A DNA stretch of 64,000 nt from Pseudomonadota bacterium (GTDB taxonomy: Bacteria > Bdellovibrionota > Bacteriovoracia > Bacteriovoracales > Bacteriovoracaceae), in NCBI GenBank assembly GCA_027487515.1, contig JAIYDL010000024.1:62001-126000 (forward strand), in the 5' to 3' direction. The position numbers were made by a program, and so were the translations under genes. Under the pieces are notes generated by a model. It was not told the DNA's origin and did not search any database. It saw only the letters and a list, made by a program, of their open reading frames with translations. Shown piece by piece: positions 52,984 through 63,350 of this stretch (position 1 is the first letter of the stretch; every line of letters begins with the position of its first letter).

Positions 52984-53904
52984 TTATTGTATATTCACAA
53001 TGATCGACTTGGGGGAGATTTCCAGCAAATGGATCGTCGGTGGAAGGATGACCTTTAGGGGAACCGTGATGCGCCCCTTCGCTTGGTCCGGGACATCCGC
53101 CCAGACCTGGACAGTGGATGAGATGTTTGATCGGTTTTTAAGGAGACGCTCCGGCACCATCAGTTTCACCGCCACGGACCGGACATTGGAACTGAGCTTT
53201 CGCTTCTCCGAAAGAAACCGGATCGGAACCTCCGTGAGGGTAAAGTTCGACGTCGATGCCTTCAGTTGGTAGCGAAGCTTCACGTCAGAGCCCCCGGTCA
53301 CGGTGAGCCTTTCGTCTGGAAGCTGGAGTTCCACGGCCACTTGATCAAGGCCTTGGAGGCCCTCGAGGTCCACCGGTTTCACGGGAAGCTCTTTGAGCTT
53401 TGAGATCAAAGACCGGGGCCCATAGACCTCAACCTCCGAGGGCTCAAGCTCGGGGTGAAGGAGTGCCAGTCGGTCCGGGAGCTGCCCCGCAAAAAGAAGC
53501 TTCAGCGGGACAATCTTGCTGGCCTTTTTTTCGAGCCGGATCTGAAGCTTCCGAGGGATCACACGCTCAACCACCATGCCGAACGGGAGATTTAACTGCG
53601 CGGGGTTGATGTCCACCGTAAAGTCCAGCGCCCGACGGGCGTTGGCACGGTTCAGGTCGATGACCAGCCGGTCCTCGCGCTCAGACACGGTCCGGACGAA
53701 GGCCCGGGGCCCTTCGATCAGGAAGATCACTTCCTGCGGTGGCTTCTGGGCGAACATCATATCCACCGGGAGGATGTACTCAAGGCTTACGGTTTTTTCA
53801 AACTTCACTTTCTCCGAATTAAGAACATACACCCAGAGGAAGATGGCCAAGAAGGCCGAGAGAAACTTCAGGGAATGCTTCTTCATCCGGTTGCGCATCT
53901 TCAT
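52984..53904 (-). CDS. cdaR: YbbR-domain regulator of diadenylate cyclase
   Basis: The ATG at 53904 shares ATGA with the cdaA stop; a longer frame would overlap cdaA. The 306-residue protein has one N-terminal membrane anchor (LKFLSAFLAIFLWVYVL near residue 11) and about three YbbR-type beta domains outside the membrane, for example VYGPRSLISKLKELP and VEVQLPDERLT-like repeats. In Firmicutes CdaR is the membrane partner that modulates CdaA. Its place between cdaA and glmM is diagnostic. Confidence 0.88.
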   Translation of the reverse strand: MKMRNRMKKHSLKFLSAFLAIFLWVYVLNSEKVKFEKTVSLEYILPVDMMFAQKPPQEVIFLIEGPRAFVRTVSEREDRLVIDLNRANARRALDFTVDINPAQLNLPFGMVVERVIPRKLQIRLEKKASKIVPLKLLFAGQLPDRLALLHPELEPSEVEVYGPRSLISKLKELPVKPVDLEGLQGLDQVAVELQLPDERLTVTGGSDVKLRYQLKASTSNFTLTEVPIRFLSEKRKLSSNVRSVAVKLMVPERLLKNRSNISSTVQVWADVPDQAKGRITVPLKVILPPTIHLLEISPKSIIVNIQ

Positions 53905-54704
53905 GAGGCCCGCCCTGCTACTGGATCGAGGCCCACGCGGTCGATCTCGAGGAGAAACTTCCGGAGGTACTTGCGCAGGAGTTCTTCGTTTTCCATGAAA
54001 TGGAAGACGCCATTGTAGCAAATGTTAATCCGGCCCGTTTCTTCCGAGACCGTCACGACGACGGCGTCGGAGATCTCCGTGATCCCGAGGGCCGCGCGGT
54101 GGCGCGTGCCGTAGTGGCGGTCAATCTCCACGTTCTTCGAGAGGGGTAAGAAACACCCGGCGGCCTGGATCAGGCCATTGTAAATGATGATGGCGCCATC
54201 ATGGAGCGGAGACTTCGGCTGGAAGATCGAATAGAGGATGTCGGAATGGATCCGGGCATCGAGCCGGGTGCCGGAGGAGGCGTAGTTCAGGAGTCCCTGG
54301 TTTTTTTCGAAGACGATGAGGGCCCCGGTCCGTTCCCGAGAAAGCGCGGACGCTGCGGCGACGACTTCTTCGATCTGCTGGTCGAACTTGGAGCGGCCCC
54401 CGCGACCGATCAAGCGGGTGGTGGTGATGGAGACCAGAGCACTTCGGATCTGGTCCTGGAACAAGACGATCAAGATGATGAAGAGGTAGTCAAAGAAGTT
54501 CTGGAGGATCCACGAAAGGGCGTAGAGCTCGTAGTACTGCGAACTCCACCACACGAGGGCGAGGGCCATGATCCCGAAGAGCATCTGGTACGCCCGGGTT
54601 CCCTGGACGATGTAGAGGAACCGGTAAACGATCACCGCTACGGCAGCGATGTCCAGTAGATCCAGGAAGCGGAAATTGGCCAGGAGGATGCCCAGCTGCT
54701 GCAA
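53901..54704 (-). CDS. cdaA: Diadenylate cyclase (c-di-AMP synthase) CdaA
   Basis: A 267-residue protein with three N-terminal membrane helices (to about residue 90) and a DisA_N catalytic domain. The catalytic DGAIIIYNG near residue 170 and RHRAALGITE near 208 are intact. The enzyme condenses two ATP to cyclic di-AMP, which governs potassium and osmolyte homeostasis and cell-wall balance. It starts the operon cdaA-cdaR-glmM-pdxJ-nnr-tsaE on the minus strand. c-di-AMP is uncommon among Gram-negative bacteria, which helps place the organism. Confidence 0.94.
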   Translation of the reverse strand: MQQLGILLANFRFLDLLDIAAVAVIVYRFLYIVQGTRAYQMLFGIMALALVWWSSQYYELYALSWILQNFFDYLFIILIVLFQDQIRSALVSITTTRLIGRGGRSKFDQQIEEVVAAASALSRERTGALIVFEKNQGLLNYASSGTRLDARIHSDILYSIFQPKSPLHDGAIIIYNGLIQAAGCFLPLSKNVEIDRHYGTRHRAALGITEISDAVVVTVSEETGRINICYNGVFHFMENEELLRKYLRKFLLEIDRVGLDPVAGRAS

Positions 54705-54770
54705 TGGTGGTCTCCACGAAATGGTTATAGGAATGGTATCGGTGAGTGTGAAAAGAATCTGAGGGAAAAC

Positions 54771-54792
54771 GGGGAGAAGGAAACTTCTCCCC
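54771..54792 (-). terminator. Terminator of the PilZ-GAF-AAA gene
   Basis: GGGGAGAAG (54771-54779), loop GAAA, CTTCTCCCC (54784-54792) is a perfect nine-base stem, followed on the minus strand by GTTTTCCC. It lies 13 bases past the stop at 54806 and upstream of cdaA. Confidence 0.8.
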
Positions 54793-54805
54793 CCAAGAAA
54801 ATGAT

Positions 54806-56770
54806 CTAAGCGGCTTTGGTTTCGGCGGCCGGAGCCCCGGTCTTGGCCTGCCGGAGGCCCTCGAGGATCTCGTCGGACATGAGCATCTTCTTCCGCAGGG
54901 CTTCACGAGAAATTCCCATGGCGATGGCGGCCTTCGACTTGTTGCCCTTGTGGCGCTTGATCTCGGCGAGGATGAGTTCACGTTCCACGAGAGCGACCCG
55001 GTCCTTCAGTGGAATCGCCGGATCGTCGGCGTGGGGGATGCTCTCCAGGAGGCAGTTCCCGGTCTTCGTGACATCAATGATCGGCGCAGACTTGCTGCCA
55101 AGGTCGGTGATGACGTGGGCCTTCGGGTTGTAGAGCACGGCCTTCTCCACCGCCTTCTCCAGTTCGGCGACGTTGCCGGGCCAGGAGTAGCTCACGAGCT
55201 GCTCTTTGGCAGTCTCCGAGAATTCCTTCAGGAGAAGCCCCTGCTTCCGGCATTCCTTCCGGAGGCACACCGAGAGAAGGTCTTCGACGTCCTGGGGACG
55301 CTTACGCAGAGGATCTACGTGCACTTCGGTAACCGAGAGGAGATGGTAGAGGTCTGGGTTGAACGTCCCGTCGGTTTCTGTCATCGCCCGAAGATCCCGC
55401 GAAGTGGTAAAGATGGGGCGGATGTCGAGCGCGATGTGCGACCCCGGGAGGCGCCCCTCCGTGAGGATCTTCGCGAGCTGGAGCTGGAAGGAGAGCGGGA
55501 GGAAGCCCACGTCTTCGATGACGACGGTGCCGCCGACGCACTCTTCGAGTTTGCTCGGACTGTGGCCGTCTCCGAAGAGTTCTCGGGAGAGACTCCCCTC
55601 GTCGACGCCCTTGCATTTGATCACAATGAAGGGCGCAAGCCCGCGCTTGCCTTCGTTGTGGACGATGCGCGCGAAGAGCTTCTTCCCGACGCCGGGTTCG
55701 CCGGTGATGAGGAGTGCCGAGTCGATGTCTTTCAGGCGCACGATCGCTTTCCGAAGCTCCGAGGTCTGACCCGAGCGCCCGATCCACGCGTACTCCCGGT
55801 CATAGGGAGTCGAGAAGCGGCGGATGAGAGACTTCTCCGAGATGGGATTGTAATTGTGGAACACGGAAGAAAGGATGAGGGCCAGGACCTTCATCGTCTT
55901 CTCGTCTTCGACAGTGAAGCGGTCCTCGTTGCGCTTGTTCAGGACCTCGATGACACCGATAATCTTGTCCTCGCGGTTACTGATCGGCGAACACATGATC
56001 GATCGCGTATCAAATCCGGTCAACCGGTCGATTTCTTCGGAGAACCGCACCTTGTCCGTTTTGCAGTCGATGTTGAGGGAGACGCCGGTGGTGAACACGG
56101 ACCCCGCGATGCCTTTCCGGTAGTCAAATTTCAAGAGCTCTTTTTCGATCCCCAGGGCCGCGACGGCCTCGAGTTCGTTGGTCTCGGTGTTGATGAGGAA
56201 AATGGTCGCCCGCTGACCGTTCAGGATCCGCACAATTTCTTCGAGCATCGACTCGACGAACTTCTCTTTGTTACCGAACTGAGTGATGTCTTTAAAGAGC
56301 GAGAGCAAGAGCGAGAACATCTCGAAGCCCTCTTTCTCGGACGCGTAGTGCTGGGTGAGGGCGAGCTGGATCAAGGAGTCTTTCAGACGTTCGGGAGGAA
56401 GAGAGTGGATGTACTGCTCGATGAAGCGCTTCATGTTCCCGTAGTCCTCCGCATCGAGCTCTGCGCCGTAGCTCATGAGATCCGCCGAGGGTGCACCGAC
56501 TTCATGGAACGCACGGACAATGCTGGCGCCGAAGTCGAACCGCAGCCGCTTGAAATGCAGCGAACAGCGCACCGTCGTCCCGATGGGGAGCGGAGCTGGC
56601 GTGGTGAAGCCGATGCCGGTCATGCTGACGTCCAAGAGCTTGACCTGCTCGACGAACTCGAGACGGCCCTGATCATTTTCAAACTCGACCAGGAACTGAA
56701 CATCATCCCGGGACTCAACCGGAACCCGAAACGATTGGTAGTACTTAAACTCTGAGAAACTGGTCAGCAT
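54806..56770 (-). CDS. PilZ-GAF-AAA-Fis regulator with a degenerate sigma-54 activator core
   Basis: A 654-residue protein with AAAGGGAGCACCC before the ATG. A PilZ-like domain is at about residues 10-115, with LLDVSMTGIGF giving DxSxxG; the upstream basic motif is FRVPVESR, not the canonical RxxxR. A GAF domain (160-320) precedes an AAA+ module (345-560) and a Fis-type helix-turn-helix (605-645, NKSKAAIAMGISREALRKKM). Walker A is GEPGVGKK. The GAFTGA loop is missing (ELFGDGHSPSKLEE). Walker B reads VVIEDVG rather than FLDEIG. The FRxDLYYRLN arginine fingers are replaced by FNPDLYHLLS. It probably binds DNA without remodelling sigma-54. Confidence 0.88.
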   Translation of the reverse strand: MLTSFSEFKYYQSFRVPVESRDDVQFLVEFENDQGRLEFVEQVKLLDVSMTGIGFTTPAPLPIGTTVRCSLHFKRLRFDFGASIVRAFHEVGAPSADLMSYGAELDAEDYGNMKRFIEQYIHSLPPERLKDSLIQLALTQHYASEKEGFEMFSLLLSLFKDITQFGNKEKFVESMLEEIVRILNGQRATIFLINTETNELEAVAALGIEKELLKFDYRKGIAGSVFTTGVSLNIDCKTDKVRFSEEIDRLTGFDTRSIMCSPISNREDKIIGVIEVLNKRNEDRFTVEDEKTMKVLALILSSVFHNYNPISEKSLIRRFSTPYDREYAWIGRSGQTSELRKAIVRLKDIDSALLITGEPGVGKKLFARIVHNEGKRGLAPFIVIKCKGVDEGSLSRELFGDGHSPSKLEECVGGTVVIEDVGFLPLSFQLQLAKILTEGRLPGSHIALDIRPIFTTSRDLRAMTETDGTFNPDLYHLLSVTEVHVDPLRKRPQDVEDLLSVCLRKECRKQGLLLKEFSETAKEQLVSYSWPGNVAELEKAVEKAVLYNPKAHVITDLGSKSAPIIDVTKTGNCLLESIPHADDPAIPLKDRVALVERELILAEIKRHKGNKSKAAIAMGISREALRKKMLMSDEILEGLRQAKTGAPAAETKAA

Positions 56771-57701: not shown

Positions 57702-58634
57702 ATGGAGTGCATGTCTAACCGATCACTCTCGACTTTTCTGGTGCCGCTTTGTCTCACTCTCCCGAGTTTAGCACGGGGAGAAAAAGATGCGCCCGCTGTG
57801 TTCCCGGTGCCAGCAACCGTGTCCAGTTTCTGCCAGGAGCTTGAAAAGAAGTTCACTGACTATAATTGGGGAAAACCACGATGTGAACATTTTCAATGGC
57901 TCACGGTGCGAAAAACGGCAAAAGGGACTCCCCTCGTTTGGACCACCTTCGGCGAGGAAAAATCCGCCGGCGCTGAAAACACCACGTTGGTTCTGTGTGG
58001 GGTCCATGGCGACGAAATCACTCCCGTGAAGTTTTGCTGGGATCTGATCAACGAGCTGAAAACAAATCACGTCTTCAAAGACAAGATGGTTGTCGTCGCT
58101 CCGGTCGTGACTCCGGATTCGTTCTTCATCCCAAAACCCACCCGCACCAATGCCGCCGGAGTGGACGTGAATCGGAATTTTCCAACCCAGGACTGGAAGG
58201 GGGAAGCGCATAAAAAGTGGGTGCAGAATTACCGGAAGGATAAACGGAAGTTCCCAGGCCCTGCCCCGGCCTCAGAGCAAGAGACGATCTTCCAGATGAA
58301 CCTGATCAAGCGCTACCGACCCAACAAGGTCATCACAGTCCACGCTCCGCTCACGCTTCTGGACTACGACGGCCCCTCGCTCAAAGCGGAGGCAGGAAAA
58401 TCCGCCAAAGAACTCCTGGAGCAAATGTCCGAGAAGTCCTCAGGCTACAAGGTCTCGAACTACCCCGTTTTCCCTGGAAGCCTCGGGAACTGGGCCGGAA
58501 AAGAGAACCACATCCCCACTTACACGTTAGAACTTCCGAACTCAGACCCCAAGGAGACCCAGCGCTTCTGGGATCTTTTTAAGGACTCGGTTATCTTCGC
58601 GATCACTCACAAGATGAAGCCGACGGTCAACTAG
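57702..58634 (+). CDS. Exported M14 (MpaA-like) zinc amidase/carboxypeptidase
   Basis: A 310-residue protein with signal peptide SNRSLSTFLVPLCLTLPSLARG (start at 57702 or 57711). Zinc ligands are in LCGVHGDEITP (HxxE) near residue 90 and TVHAPLTLLDYDGP near 205. VDVNRNFP near 147 is the substrate-binding Arg motif, and TYTLELP near 275 carries the catalytic Glu. YPVFPGSLGNWAG near 255 resembles MpaA, the murein tripeptide amidase acting on D-Glu-mDAP. The substrate is probably a cell-wall peptide. Its stop is shared in CTAG with the ferrochelatase-MFS gene. Confidence 0.85.
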   Translation: MECMSNRSLSTFLVPLCLTLPSLARGEKDAPAVFPVPATVSSFCQELEKKFTDYNWGKPRCEHFQWLTVRKTAKGTPLVWTTFGEEKSAGAENTTLVLCGVHGDEITPVKFCWDLINELKTNHVFKDKMVVVAPVVTPDSFFIPKPTRTNAAGVDVNRNFPTQDWKGEAHKKWVQNYRKDKRKFPGPAPASEQETIFQMNLIKRYRPNKVITVHAPLTLLDYDGPSLKAEAGKSAKELLEQMSEKSSGYKVSNYPVFPGSLGNWAGKENHIPTYTLELPNSDPKETQRFWDLFKDSVIFAITHKMKPTVN

Positions 58635-61036
58635 GCTTCGGCGGTCCCTTCCTTCGAGACCGGTGCCGGCAGGAGCCGAACGAGGAGCGCCGGTATGATG
58701 ATGAGACTCGCCCCGATGAGGTACGCATTCACCGAACCAAACTTCCAGTAAACCAAGGAAGCGTAGATCGGACCGAGAACCCGACCCAGAGACCCGAGGG
58801 AGCGGAAGATGCCAAGGCCCTGGCCCTGCATGTGGGCCGGGGTGTAGAAGCTCACCAAAGAGGTGAGACACGGAATGATCATCGCGGAGCCCACGGCCAA
58901 GAAAAAGAGACCTCCGTACAGCATCCACGGAACTCGCGCGAAAGCGAGGAGCAGAAGTCCCGGGAGGATCGCAATCAGACCCTGGAACGCCATTTTCCTT
59001 TCACCCACCGAATGGGCCTTCCTCCGCACGTAGCCTCCTTGAACCATCCCGATCACAAACCCGATGAAGATGAACATGTAGGCATTATCAAGGGATGTGT
59101 AGCCGAAGCGCTCCACCGCTAAGAAGGTCAGCGTGAACTCCATCCCGGAGAACGCCGTGATGAAAAAGAAGTACGCAATGTTCGTGAGGTTGATCCCCGG
59201 AAACGGCAAAGGCCTTAGGAGTTTAAACGGATTCACGCTCCGCTGGATGTGCGCCTTGCCCCCCGGTTTCAAAGTCTCTGGGAATGAGCGCCAGATGGTG
59301 ACGAAGTTCACCAGCGCCAGCACCGCGGCCAGTGTTGCAGGGGTGGAGAAAGGGTTGACCCCGAGGGCCTCGAGCGCCGGGTAATTGAGGATGGGGTTAT
59401 AGAGGGAGAGGATTCCGCCAAGTGCAGGGCCAAAGACGAAGCCCAGCGCGAAAGCGATGCCGATCACGGCCATTCCCTTCGAGCGATTTTTTTCGTCAGT
59501 GATGTCACTCACGACGGCGCTCGCGATGGAAAGGTTTCCGGACATGAGTCCACCCACGAGGCGTGCGATGATGAGCAAGGTGAATGAGCCCGAGAACATC
59601 CAGATGACGTAGCTAATGAAGAGACCGAAGACGGAAATGAGCAGCACCGGCCTGCGCCCGACGCGATCGGAGATGGTCCCCCAGACAGGAGCGGCAAGGA
59701 ACTGCAAAAGTGAGTAGAGGGCCCCGAGTAAACCTCCGAACAAAACGATGGTGCTCATCTGGGGCGAACCGTCGGCCCCGAGAGAGATCGACTGAATGTT
59801 TGAAATGAGATTCATCATGCCCGAGAGGAAGAAATTGTCTCGGTCAACTTCGAGGTAGTACTTGGCCATGGCCGGGAACATGGGGAAGATGATGGAGAAT
59901 CCCACGAGGTCGAGGAACATGGTTAGGAACATGAGCTTGAGGATTTTCTTCGACGCTTCCGGGAGTTTCGCTGGCGCGTGCTTTTCTTGGTCATTGATCA
60001 CGTGGGTGTACCTTTCTTTGGCGTCGATGGAATAGAAGAGCTCCTGGCGCTGGGCTTCGGAGCCGTTGGCGTAAACGTTGATGAAGCTCGCGTAGTCTGC
60101 GATCCACTCCGGGTCGTCATTGAGGCACGGGATGTGGACGAGGTTTCCGCCAACCTCTTTCACTTCATGGCCCAGCTCGTTTCCGATTTCGTCGGTGGTC
60201 TCGAGGCAGTCGACGACGAAGCTCGGGCAGTAGACTCCGATCGTACCGACGCCGGACTCGACCTTCTTCATGATGACCTCGTCGGTGTAGGGGCCAAGCC
60301 ACACTTCGGAGCCGAAGCGGGACTGGAAGGTCATGCTGAGGGGAATCGTTCCCTTGAGGTGCTCGCGGATGAGTTCGAAGGTCTCGAGGCAGTGGAGAAG
60401 GTAGAGATCTTTTTTCTTCAGCACTCGCCGCAGCGGGATGCCGTGGAAGGAGATGACGATCTCCTTGATGTCGGGGTGACGCTCGAGGGACTCCCGGATC
60501 TTCCTCACGGAGTGATCGATGAACGCCTTCGACCGGTGGTACGAACTCACCACGGTGAAGGTGGGGATGTTCACACGATGCTTGAACTCTCCCCCGAGCG
60601 CATCCACCACGGCGGCGATGGTGCTTTCCGAGTACTGCGGAAACTGCGGGAGCACGAGGACCCGCTGCGCGCGGGTCGCAACGTCTTCTTTTTCCCAGTC
60701 ATCGAGGACCCGGTTAGCGCGCGGTTCCGAGAGGAGAAAGATGTGGTTGAGTTCGAGGTTTGGATCGAGCTTGGGCCTCACAGCGTCGGCGACCTTCTTC
60801 GTGTTGGTGACCAGAGGGAACCCTTCCGGTGCGTAAATCCGAGCATAGGCTTCGGCGGAGCGCTTGGGCCTAAACGGAAGAACGAAGAGATTCAAAATGA
60901 GCTTCCAAAGAAGAGGATTGATGTCAACCACCCGCGGGTCACCGAGGAACTCCCGGAGGTACTTCCGTACATCTGAGACCTTCGTGCTTTTCGGAGAACC
61001 GAGCTGACCCAAGATAACTTTGATTTTTTCTGCCAT
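58631..61036 (-). CDS. Ferrochelatase fused to an MFS transporter
   Basis: An 801-residue protein from ATG 61036 (an ATG at 61075 would add 13 residues). Residues 1 to about 345 are a complete ferrochelatase: VILGQLGSP at the start, SFHGIPLRR with metal His198, TFQSRFGSEVWLGPYTDE near 236, and YCPSFVVDCLETTDEIG near 269 with Glu279. After a 20-residue linker, residues about 366-801 form a 12-helix MFS permease with motif A WGTISDRVGRRPVLL and a second half-repeat. The frame is uninterrupted, with no second start signal at the junction. It may insert Fe2+ into protoporphyrin and move haem, porphyrin or iron across the inner membrane. Confidence 0.9.
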   Translation of the reverse strand: MAEKIKVILGQLGSPKSTKVSDVRKYLREFLGDPRVVDINPLLWKLILNLFVLPFRPKRSAEAYARIYAPEGFPLVTNTKKVADAVRPKLDPNLELNHIFLLSEPRANRVLDDWEKEDVATRAQRVLVLPQFPQYSESTIAAVVDALGGEFKHRVNIPTFTVVSSYHRSKAFIDHSVRKIRESLERHPDIKEIVISFHGIPLRRVLKKKDLYLLHCLETFELIREHLKGTIPLSMTFQSRFGSEVWLGPYTDEVIMKKVESGVGTIGVYCPSFVVDCLETTDEIGNELGHEVKEVGGNLVHIPCLNDDPEWIADYASFINVYANGSEAQRQELFYSIDAKERYTHVINDQEKHAPAKLPEASKKILKLMFLTMFLDLVGFSIIFPMFPAMAKYYLEVDRDNFFLSGMMNLISNIQSISLGADGSPQMSTIVLFGGLLGALYSLLQFLAAPVWGTISDRVGRRPVLLISVFGLFISYVIWMFSGSFTLLIIARLVGGLMSGNLSIASAVVSDITDEKNRSKGMAVIGIAFALGFVFGPALGGILSLYNPILNYPALEALGVNPFSTPATLAAVLALVNFVTIWRSFPETLKPGGKAHIQRSVNPFKLLRPLPFPGINLTNIAYFFFITAFSGMEFTLTFLAVERFGYTSLDNAYMFIFIGFVIGMVQGGYVRRKAHSVGERKMAFQGLIAILPGLLLLAFARVPWMLYGGLFFLAVGSAMIIPCLTSLVSFYTPAHMQGQGLGIFRSLGSLGRVLGPIYASLVYWKFGSVNAYLIGASLIIIPALLVRLLPAPVSKEGTAEA

Positions 61037-61121
61037 ACGCTTCTTTGTGTTGTAAGATTCCCTACTTTTTGTCATAACTGTGCCTAAATGACTAGAATCA
61101 AAAGTATTCGAGGGTTAGACA

Positions 61122-61646
61122 ATGGCCAAAAAGTATAAGTCGCAGGGTCGCGCGGACAAAGACCTAAAGACCGTCTCTCTTCTGGGCAACACCCAAACAG
61201 AGTACCCAGATTCCTATTCTCCAGGGGTGCTGGAGAAGTTCCCGAACAAGCACCCAGACAACGACGCCTGGACGACCTTTATTTGCACCGAGTTCACCTC
61301 GCTCTGCCCGAAAACTGGCCAGCCCGACTTCGCCAAAATTTACGTGAACTACATCGCGGACAAAGAAATGGTGGAATCAAAGTCCCTGAAGATCTACCTC
61401 TTCAGTTTCCGCAACCACGGCGACTTTCACGAAGACTGCGTCCAGAAGATCTGCAAGGACCTCTTTAAACTCATGAAGCCAAAGTACATCGAAGTCATGG
61501 GAGACTTCACTCCCCGGGGAGGGATCTCCATCTTCCCTTTCGCCGCCCTGACCAATGGCCAGCGAAAATACGATGACTTAAAGGCCACTCGCATGGCCAA
61601 CTATGCCCCTGGGAAGTACGGGATGGACCTGGCTCGCCTTTACTGA
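61122..61646 (+). CDS. queF: NADPH-dependent 7-cyano-7-deazaguanine reductase
   Basis: A 174-residue QueF that reduces preQ0 to preQ1 in queuosine biosynthesis. [13 protein letters not shown] near residue 62 holds the catalytic Cys, and [20 protein letters not shown] near 87 is the NADPH-binding QueF signature. The length matches the short, Bacillus-type unimodular enzyme. It is divergent from the ferrochelatase-MFS gene, with tatA 40 bases downstream. Confidence 0.95.
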
Positions 61647-61686: not shown

Positions 61687-61842
61687 ATGAACTTGGGTAT
61701 GATGGAGTTATTGGTTGTTTTAGCGATTGTCGTGCTCTTCTTCGGAGGCCGCAAACTTCCGCAACTCGGCTCAGCGCTGGGAGAATCCATCAAGAACTTC
61801 AAGAAAGGCATGAAGGAAGACGACACCGACAAAAAAGCCTAG
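61687..61842 (+). CDS. tatA: Twin-arginine translocase subunit TatA/E
   Basis: The ATG at 61687 ([21 protein letters not shown]) has AGGTTGGT upstream; the longer frame lies inside queF. The 51-residue product has one N-terminal membrane helix, the [14 protein letters not shown] hinge and amphipathic helix, and a charged tail [13 protein letters not shown]. tatB and tatC are not adjacent. The stop is shared in CTAG with the convergent SIS-domain gene. Confidence 0.92.
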
Positions 61843-63350
61843 AACCTCGCCACGACCTTCATGACCACCGGTTCGTTTTCATTTAGACTTTCGATCTCTT
61901 CGAAGATCTTCCCCACCACGGCCTCGTAGCTCGACTCCTTCCCCTGCCGGTGAAGGACCTGGAGAGCGTACCTCGCTGCACGGTCGATCAGTTTGTTGTT
62001 TGAGGGTCTGACCCAGGTCATGACGTTGCCCTCGTAACGACCAAGGAGTCCCATGATCAGAGTGGAATGTGCGTTCAAGAGCATCTTGATCATCAGGTGA
62101 TTGAAGAGCGGATCATCCCCCCAGCGGAAGCTCATCTGGGCGTCACCGAAGGCGAGAGATACGGATCCCCGGTCATGAACAACGGAGAACTCCTCGGCGG
62201 AAACCGACGTTGAACGGTGACTGAGACCCTGGCGAGAAATGTCGAACCCCAGGAGTCGCTCCAGATTGATTCGTCCCCCCAGCTCGGCCCAATCGATGGC
62301 CCTCGGGGGGCGCTGGAGGAGCTCGGTCCAGGCGTCGGAAGAAGATGCAGCGTCGGGGATAAACAGGTAGGCCAGCGCATGGGTCCCTTGTTGATCGAGA
62401 CGATTCTCAAATCCTCGAAGAGAGAACGTGGGGGAGCGTTCGGTTGTGTCGGTGAGGATGCTGATCGCAAGTGCTGAGCTCGTGACGTAGTTAACGAAAC
62501 GGCCCTCCTGGTAGCACCGGGCTTCCTGGGTCGTGAAGGGGGCCAGAGCGGTGTAGTCCGTCTCCCGTAGGCGGCGGAGAAGGTCGCGATAAAATGAGTC
62601 AAAGGAAGTCCGGTCTTGGTGGACATAGAGGAGGCCCACACCAATCCCAAGCATGAGAACTGTTGAGGCCTGCATTCTCGTAGAACCTGAGACGGCCATG
62701 GGCCCCACGGACAGGTTCACGGACTGGATGGAGCGATGCTGGAGAACCTCTCTCGAGCGCTTGATCGGAAGGAGGAGTTCGTCCGGATTACAATAAAGGA
62801 AGAAGGGTTTGCGTCGCGATGTTTCGGCGGCCTTGAGGGCCGCACCGATCACGAAAGGAGTTTCCCCGCCCTCCGTCGAAGCCAGCAGGAGGTCATGGGG
62901 ACCGAAACCCAGCTCGAGGAGTTGCCGCTCACCGTATTCGGTCTTATCCTCGAAACTCTCGACCGACTTGATTAAGGCGTAATCCCCACCTGCCATGAAA
63001 GAAACCACTTGGTCGGTGGGACCAAACTTCTGCCGGTAAAGTGTTTCAAGCACGAGGGAAAGTCTACCGGTTGCCCCGCAGCCACAGAGGAAGACTTTGT
63101 GGCCCGCGCTCAGGGTACTCCGGATCTCCTGGGCCAGGGCCCAAAGGACGGGAGTGCGATCCTCCATCATGGCGATGGCATCCGCATCGACCTCCTGAAG
63201 GAGACGAAGAGCGCTCTCTACGTCTCCCTTCACGAGCTGAGACAGGCTTGCGGTTTTCGGATGAAAGCTCTCTGTCTGGAGGTGCCCCAGCTTGAATTCT
63301 TGAGCGATCTTTAAAAACTCAGTTGTCTTTGCCGCCGGGGACACGTTCAT
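61839..63350 (-). CDS. Double-SIS MurQ/GKRP-like protein
   Basis: A 503-residue protein. Residues 20-50 ([12 protein letters not shown]) and [14 protein letters not shown] near residue 97 match the MurNAc-6-phosphate etherase signature (TE..N..T; GxGTSGR). [19 protein letters not shown] near 160 continues the first SIS domain. A second SIS-like half follows from about 280. MurQ is about 300 residues and single-domain; the doubled form resembles glucokinase regulatory protein. It may process or sense MurNAc-6-phosphate from peptidoglycan turnover. A leader hairpin lies directly before its ribosome binding site. Confidence 0.82.

Follow-up and report, generated by a model that had tools for sequence, protein, structure and literature searches.

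A ferrochelatase fused to an MFS transporter in relatives of Bacteriovorax, with a probable internal start for the free transporter

In bacteria, little is understood of the way in which freshly synthesised haem departs from ferrochelatase and passes the inner membrane. A gene on contig JAIYDL010000024.1 of a Bacteriovoracaceae genome (assembly GCA_027487515.1), in which a ferrochelatase (HemH) is joined to a transporter of the major facilitator superfamily (MFS), raises the questions of whether this junction is genuine, how many products the gene gives, and what the transporter carries. The whole stretch of DNA analysed, referred to as the window, comprised 64,000 nucleotides (nt) of this contig, from position 62,001 to position 126,000. 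The best explanation we can offer, tentatively and with a chance approaching even, is that the gene would give two products and that a tetrapyrrole transporter, likely working in export, is fused to the only ferrochelatase.

A preliminary description of the locus reported a complete ferrochelatase joined in frame to a full MFS permease, and our analysis bore this out. The frame is uninterrupted. Its first part matched PF00762 (E 1e-76; 258 bits vs. a cut-off of 27) and was assigned to HemH by the curated profile TIGR00109 (196 bits vs. a cut-off of 124.6), and its second part matched PF07690 (MFS_1) with E 4e-55. The motifs FQSRFG, CLETTDEIG, and DRVGRRP named in that description were all present. 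Its His198 and Glu279 are H211 and E292 when counted from the first ATG; these residues, which we take to be the catalytic His and Glu of ferrochelatase, were unchanged in all 94 relatives whose frame crosses the junction. The predicted structure of the fusion (51-row alignment; mean predicted local distance difference test score, pLDDT, 88.9; predicted template modelling score, pTM, 0.77) resembled human ferrochelatase and human MFSD10 and placed a helix in the linker. By these matches, the fused ferrochelatase has a complete catalytic domain and an intact active site. It was the sole ferrochelatase detected in the window's genome (G000), where ALAD and URO-D also gave matches.

The same fusion was sought in 129 genomes of the class (Bacteriovorax relatives), and the loci were then inspected. 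An in-frame, stop-free fusion was present in 95 of the 129, namely at 94 of 96 loci examined at the junction and in G006, where a frame of 534 codons runs through it. G131 has a stop codon in the linker. Seven genomes with a match cut at or near a contig end were not judged (G068, G082, G089, G105, G110, G136, and G141). The MFS half stood alone in seven genomes (G032, G077, G084, G092, G093, G125, and G126), and ferrochelatase occurred without this MFS in eight (G078, G109, G112, G113, G114, G144, G148, and G149). Neither half was found in 11 of the 129, several of them incomplete assemblies (G014, G022, G029, G087, G108, G115, G117, G124, G135, G138, and G150). A second ferrochelatase that would make the fused one redundant was not found: among the 113 genomes of the class with a match, 112 had a single one, and the two matches of G006 were taken to be pieces of a single gene split between contigs.

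A fusion elsewhere in the phylum was sought in 368 genomes; among the matches listed, the ferrochelatases outside the class had open frames of at most 433 codons. With E up to 1e-55, the MFS half was matched by 111 of these 368 genomes, 106 within the class and 5 outside it, the latter with 35–38% identity over part of the protein. The search that reached beyond the phylum was a genome-collection scan, in which 80 of 100 relatives were retained. The MFS half was matched by 46 of them, which were fusions, MFS-only or cut copies from Bacteriovorax relatives or broadly named records; the other 34 matched the ferrochelatase half only and were mostly Burkholderiales. The fusion is carried by isolates with strain names as well, DB6_IX (L054) and BSW11_IV (L071), both Bacteriovorax sp. 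It is genuine and ancient.

The preliminary description held that an internal start preceded by a ribosome binding site is missing from the junction. This was contradicted by a Shine-Dalgarno-like GAAAGG followed in frame by GTG, with 9 nt separating AGG from GTG (AGG-N9-GTG, 60013–59999). Observed codon identity was compared with a pair-specific expectation in the window's genus (n = 23). Among the 604 single columns that could be tested, codons 355 (AGG) and 359 (GTG) came first and second in synonymous conservation, with identities of 1.00 vs. 0.28 expected and 0.91 vs. 0.38 expected, respectively, and the codons next to them varied. In the genes of the genus, AGG makes up 114 of 764 Arg codons and GTG 473 of 1348 Val codons. 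An AGG ending 4–12 nt before an in-frame start within residues 345–372 was found in 74 of 94 fusions (23/23 in the genus and 51/71 elsewhere, mostly with ATG), vs. 0 to 44 fusions for each of 25 control windows of 28 codons; the highest control windows fell in the MFS half, which is better conserved in protein sequence than the linker. In six of the seven MFS-only genes, AGG lies 6–11 nt upstream of a start aligned with fusion residues 359–367; G125 is the exception. The gene thus probably makes both the fusion and a free transporter. A single polypeptide as the sole product is doubtful, given the conserved start at residue 359 and the linker stop of G131. It is likely that an old ribosome binding site of the MFS gene became coding linker, and was kept, once the hemH stop was lost.

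The transporter half retained G473 and R474 of motif A in all 93 sequences covering these positions and G549, P550, G553, and G554 of motif C in all 90 covering theirs. We take motif C (GxxxGPxxGG) to be an antiporter signature and the two motifs to be those of DHA1 exporters. The nearest solved structures included MFSD10, VMAT, and NorA, and MFSD10 was the nearest, with 31% identity over 454 alignment columns. The curated equivalog model for Tet(A)/(B)/(C) gave 154 bits vs. a cut-off of 475, and scores for other Tet efflux models were also far below their cut-offs. From the DHA1 antiporter motif and the TetA/MFSD10 kinship, that is, from family precedent only, we infer that outward transport is favoured. 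Among transporters with solved structures, human MFSD10 (E 2.9e-63) was by far a closer match to the MFS half (58631–59956) than any bacterial one, and such bacteria may have been involved in the origin of the MFSD10 family. In the available text of PMC5627054, MFSD10 is described only as an organic anion transporter.

The distribution of haem genes bears on the substrate. Ferrochelatase, ALAD, and URO-D were all not found in 8 of the 129 genomes (G077, G082, G115, G117, G125, G126, G135, and G150). Five of these eight had a COX1 match (G077, G082, G125, G126, and, weakly, G150), and the MFS was kept in the first four of the five; the copy of G082 is cut by a contig end and could be a fusion. 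In G115, G117, and G135, COX1 was not found, and neither was the transporter. By gene content, the transporter in these eight genomes goes with haem use rather than with haem synthesis. A tetrapyrrole-related role is suggested because the transporter was retained in G077, G125, and G126, which have COX1 and in which none of the three haem-synthesis genes searched for was found.

Several observations weigh against this reading. Both ferrochelatase and COX1 gave matches in G109, G114, and G149, where this transporter is missing, so haem use does not require it. Cytochrome c assembly matches occur in G115 and G150, which have no such transporter and in which no ferrochelatase, ALAD, or URO-D was found; these two genomes weaken the idea that the transporter serves only to export haem for cytochrome c maturation. 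The association with haem rests on few, related, and mostly draft genomes, and in cells unable to make haem, import would account for the transporter as readily as export. Cytochrome c assembly and HemJ were searched for in 29 chosen genomes; HemJ, a mark of the protoporphyrin route, was found in six of them and not in G000, and is uninformative for the window.

In the mechanism we favour, one message would give the full ferrochelatase–transporter and, from the internal start, a free transporter. The full-length protein would hold the making of haem against the inner membrane, on its cytosolic side. The transporter would move a tetrapyrrole, either haem or protoporphyrin left unmetallated, with a predicted direction that is most likely outward in exchange for protons. 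A predator flooded by prey haem and iron could in this way vent haem or porphyrin where it is made; the tether would give the enzyme direct access to the valve, and the internal start would set the ratio of transporter to enzyme. Stated more broadly, the gene may specify a covalent tetrapyrrole enzyme–transporter unit with two products, in which the ferrochelatase gives haem or porphyrin to its own MFS or takes porphyrin or iron from it, the balance between coupled and free transporter is set by the internal start, and the MFS half represents a new MFSD10-related family of tetrapyrrole transporters. We regard this broader statement as possible, at somewhat less than an even chance. The roles proposed in the preliminary description (haem export, iron or porphyrin import, and protection) are not separable by sequence, and the idea of haem handling is kept as a hypothesis.

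Inward transport, which we consider unlikely, would have the MFS import prey-derived porphyrin, haem, or iron and hand it to the fused ferrochelatase, or import haem itself where the enzyme was lost. It would suit the lifestyle of the named relatives with the fusion, which are Bacteriovorax-type bacteria, known as predators. It would also suit the persistence of the transporter in COX1-bearing genomes with no ferrochelatase, ALAD, or URO-D found; in one of these, G125, no FecCD permease match was found (FecCD was sought in 16 chosen genomes). A precedent is the binding of mitochondrial ferrochelatase to the iron importer mitoferrin, as given in the available text of PMC9133952. However, DHA1 kinship and the invariant motif C favour movement out of the cytosol, and G078 has a free ferrochelatase, with no ALAD or URO-D found, and no such transporter. 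The genome of G078 (L128) is 96% complete, its ferrochelatase lies beside queF, and it appears to have the last step of haem synthesis without the upstream steps of ALAD and URO-D.

A substrate unrelated to haem, such as a drug, an organic anion, or a siderophore, seems to us improbable to a similar degree; here the fusion would only link the expression or the membrane anchoring of neighbours. The nearest families are transporters of drugs, amines, and organic anions, and both the internal start and the MFS-only genes indicate that the transporter can stand alone. Moreover, the MFS-only genes sit at the queF locus, and in G032, G084, G092, and G093 a separate ferrochelatase lies on a different contig from the MFS. 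Two points speak against an unrelated substrate: the frame stays open in 95 genomes across an otherwise variable linker, and in the few genomes where haem genes are missing, the transporter follows COX1, not haem synthesis.

It is quite improbable that only the full-length protein is made and that the conserved AGG and GTG codons serve some other nucleotide-level signal. The observations that count against an internal start are that an AGG-type site is absent from the linker of 20 of the 94 fusions, that the linker helix is predicted to span residues 353–366, and that, when windows of seven codons are ranked, the 5′ end (windows from residues 2–8) outranks the linker, whose window is eighth; in addition, the linker columns of the 71 fusions outside the genus are unsuited to the synonymous test, as their residues vary. 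Against production of the full-length protein alone stand the canonical spacing of AGG and start, the use by other genera of ATG instead of GTG at this residue or close to it, and the MFS-only genes, which start at the matching place. An assembly or sequencing artefact joining two genes, including the frameshift at the junction envisaged in the preliminary description, has a negligible chance, being favoured only by the linker stop of G131 and rejected by the same in-frame junction in 95 of the 129 genomes and in the two named isolates.

The history of the fusion can be followed at its locus. The queF gene was divergent from hemH-MFS at almost every fetched locus reaching far enough, and in five genomes (G078, G113, G114, G148, and G149) queF lies beside hemH without MFS in the same place. 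In G078, G148, and G149 the free HemH stops close to residue 333, short of the linker. The G113 and G114 proteins extend further at the C terminus, and in G113 this extension resembles the first part of the linker. All fusions formed one group in the ferrochelatase tree (support 92/95), together with the split G131 and with G110, which is cut by a contig end at the junction. The free enzymes of the queF locus adjoin this group on long branches with modest support (89/71), G109 falls outside them, and no enzyme-only case was nested among the fusions except contig-cut G110. The MFS-only genes are scattered among the fusions: parsimony gave 5 changes, and the starred branches of the tree force at least 2. 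Their grouping as one clade was rejected by the approximately unbiased (AU) test (p 0.001; 7 MFS-only rows vs. 52, with outgroup, partial, and G110 rows dropped), so that more than one loss of the hemH half, with the transporter retained, is probable. On these trees, the simplest reading would be a single fusion event, after which the enzyme half was lost repeatedly; the basal G125, which has another reading frame between queF and MFS, could be pre-fusion. In G032, G092, and G093 (L133–L135), the ferrochelatase clusters in the tree with a different family of the phylum, matches to URO-D and ALAD are no more than ~11 kb away from it, and the native locus retains queF and MFS alone, which suggests that an acquired cluster replaced the native haem genes.

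The N-terminal start was given previously as the upper end of the span 58631–61036. Position 61036 is the second in-frame ATG (residue 14), and the frame extends to 61075. The second ATG is the likelier start because it is common to all 23 genus members and the first ATG is missing in several. In favour of the first ATG, AGG is located 7 nt upstream of it in the window, and the second ATG has none. AGG precedes some N-terminal start in only 4 of 23 sequences in the genus, all 23 of which have the internal AGG site, and in 48 of 71 in other genera. The first 13 codons of the frame (61036–61121 region, beside the queF start) show unusually strong synonymous conservation in the genus and may be a promoter or leader rather than protein. 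A scan of 58500–61300 for sigma-70-like promoters gave two matches vs. 0.6 expected, one per strand, and none inside the ferrochelatase half. The minus-strand match (61159–61132) is inside the queF start, ~57 nt before the first ATG.

The features of the locus are collected in Table 1. Elsewhere in the window, a CdaA-type c-di-AMP cyclase and YbbR lie beside a PilZ-GAF-sigma54 activator-Fis regulator (52984–56770); the cyclase and the regulator are also near the fusion in several relatives. Many fetched loci have, close to queF, an SIS-domain protein of 503 residues (61839–63350) with a relationship to glucokinase regulatory protein.

Table 1. Features of the ferrochelatase–transporter locus, in positions of the window
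Feature	Position	Strand	Basis or remark
Ferrochelatase–MFS fusion gene	58631..61075	−	Single uninterrupted frame, 814 codons
Ferrochelatase (HemH) domain, residues 20–327	60095..61018	−	PF00762 and TIGR00109 above cut-offs; H211 and E292 taken as catalytic
Linker, residues 334–372	59960..60076	−	Predicted helix at 353–366
Shine-Dalgarno-like GAAAGG in linker	60011..60016	−	Codon 355 is AGG in 23/23 genus members
Putative internal start codon GTG, residue 359	59999..60001	−	GTG in 22/23 genus members; ATG at residue 360 in the remaining one
MFS domain (DHA1, TetA/MFSD10-like), residues 382–769	58769..59932	−	Motif A SDRVGRR, motif C GFVFGPALGG
queF, divergent neighbour marking the hemH locus	61122..61646	+	Profile match and locus comparison
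M14 peptidase (MpaA-like), convergent	57702..58634	+	Shares its final 4 bases with the end of the fusion gene

No report of a ferrochelatase–MFS architecture turned up in the open-access literature searched, in agreement with the preliminary description, which knew of no characterised protein of this kind. The words ferrochelatase, heme, haem, and hemH were absent from the main text of two comparative-genomics papers on the phylum (PMC11656739, PMC8067016). A natural enzyme–transporter fusion that holds the only ferrochelatase found in most genomes of the class offers a direct handle on how haem exits the enzyme and crosses the membrane. Its MFS half is a testable candidate for a tetrapyrrole transporter related to human MFSD10, and the internal start would turn the question of a fusion or two genes into a measurable ratio.

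Among known systems, the protoporphyrin ferrochelatases HemH/FECH share with the fused enzyme the whole catalytic domain, the catalytic His and Glu, and the fold of human FECH, and differ in that the protein described here has a full MFS transporter at its C terminus. MFSD10 (TETRAN) and the TetA-type DHA1 transporters correspond to the whole MFS half, motifs A and C included; here this half is fused to an enzyme, and the cut-off for Tet(A)/(B)/(C) is far from reached. The cyanobacterial and plastid type II ferrochelatases with a CAB domain also have a C-terminal membrane segment attached via a linker, according to the available text of PMC3563542, but that segment is a single predicted helix of the light-harvesting type, whereas here it is a full MFS transporter. 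Physical coupling of a ferrochelatase to membrane transporters is also seen in the mitochondrial assembly of ferrochelatase, mitoferrin, and ABCB10; in the available text of PMC9133952, its members are separate proteins, its transporters belong to other families, and the role given for mitoferrin is iron import.

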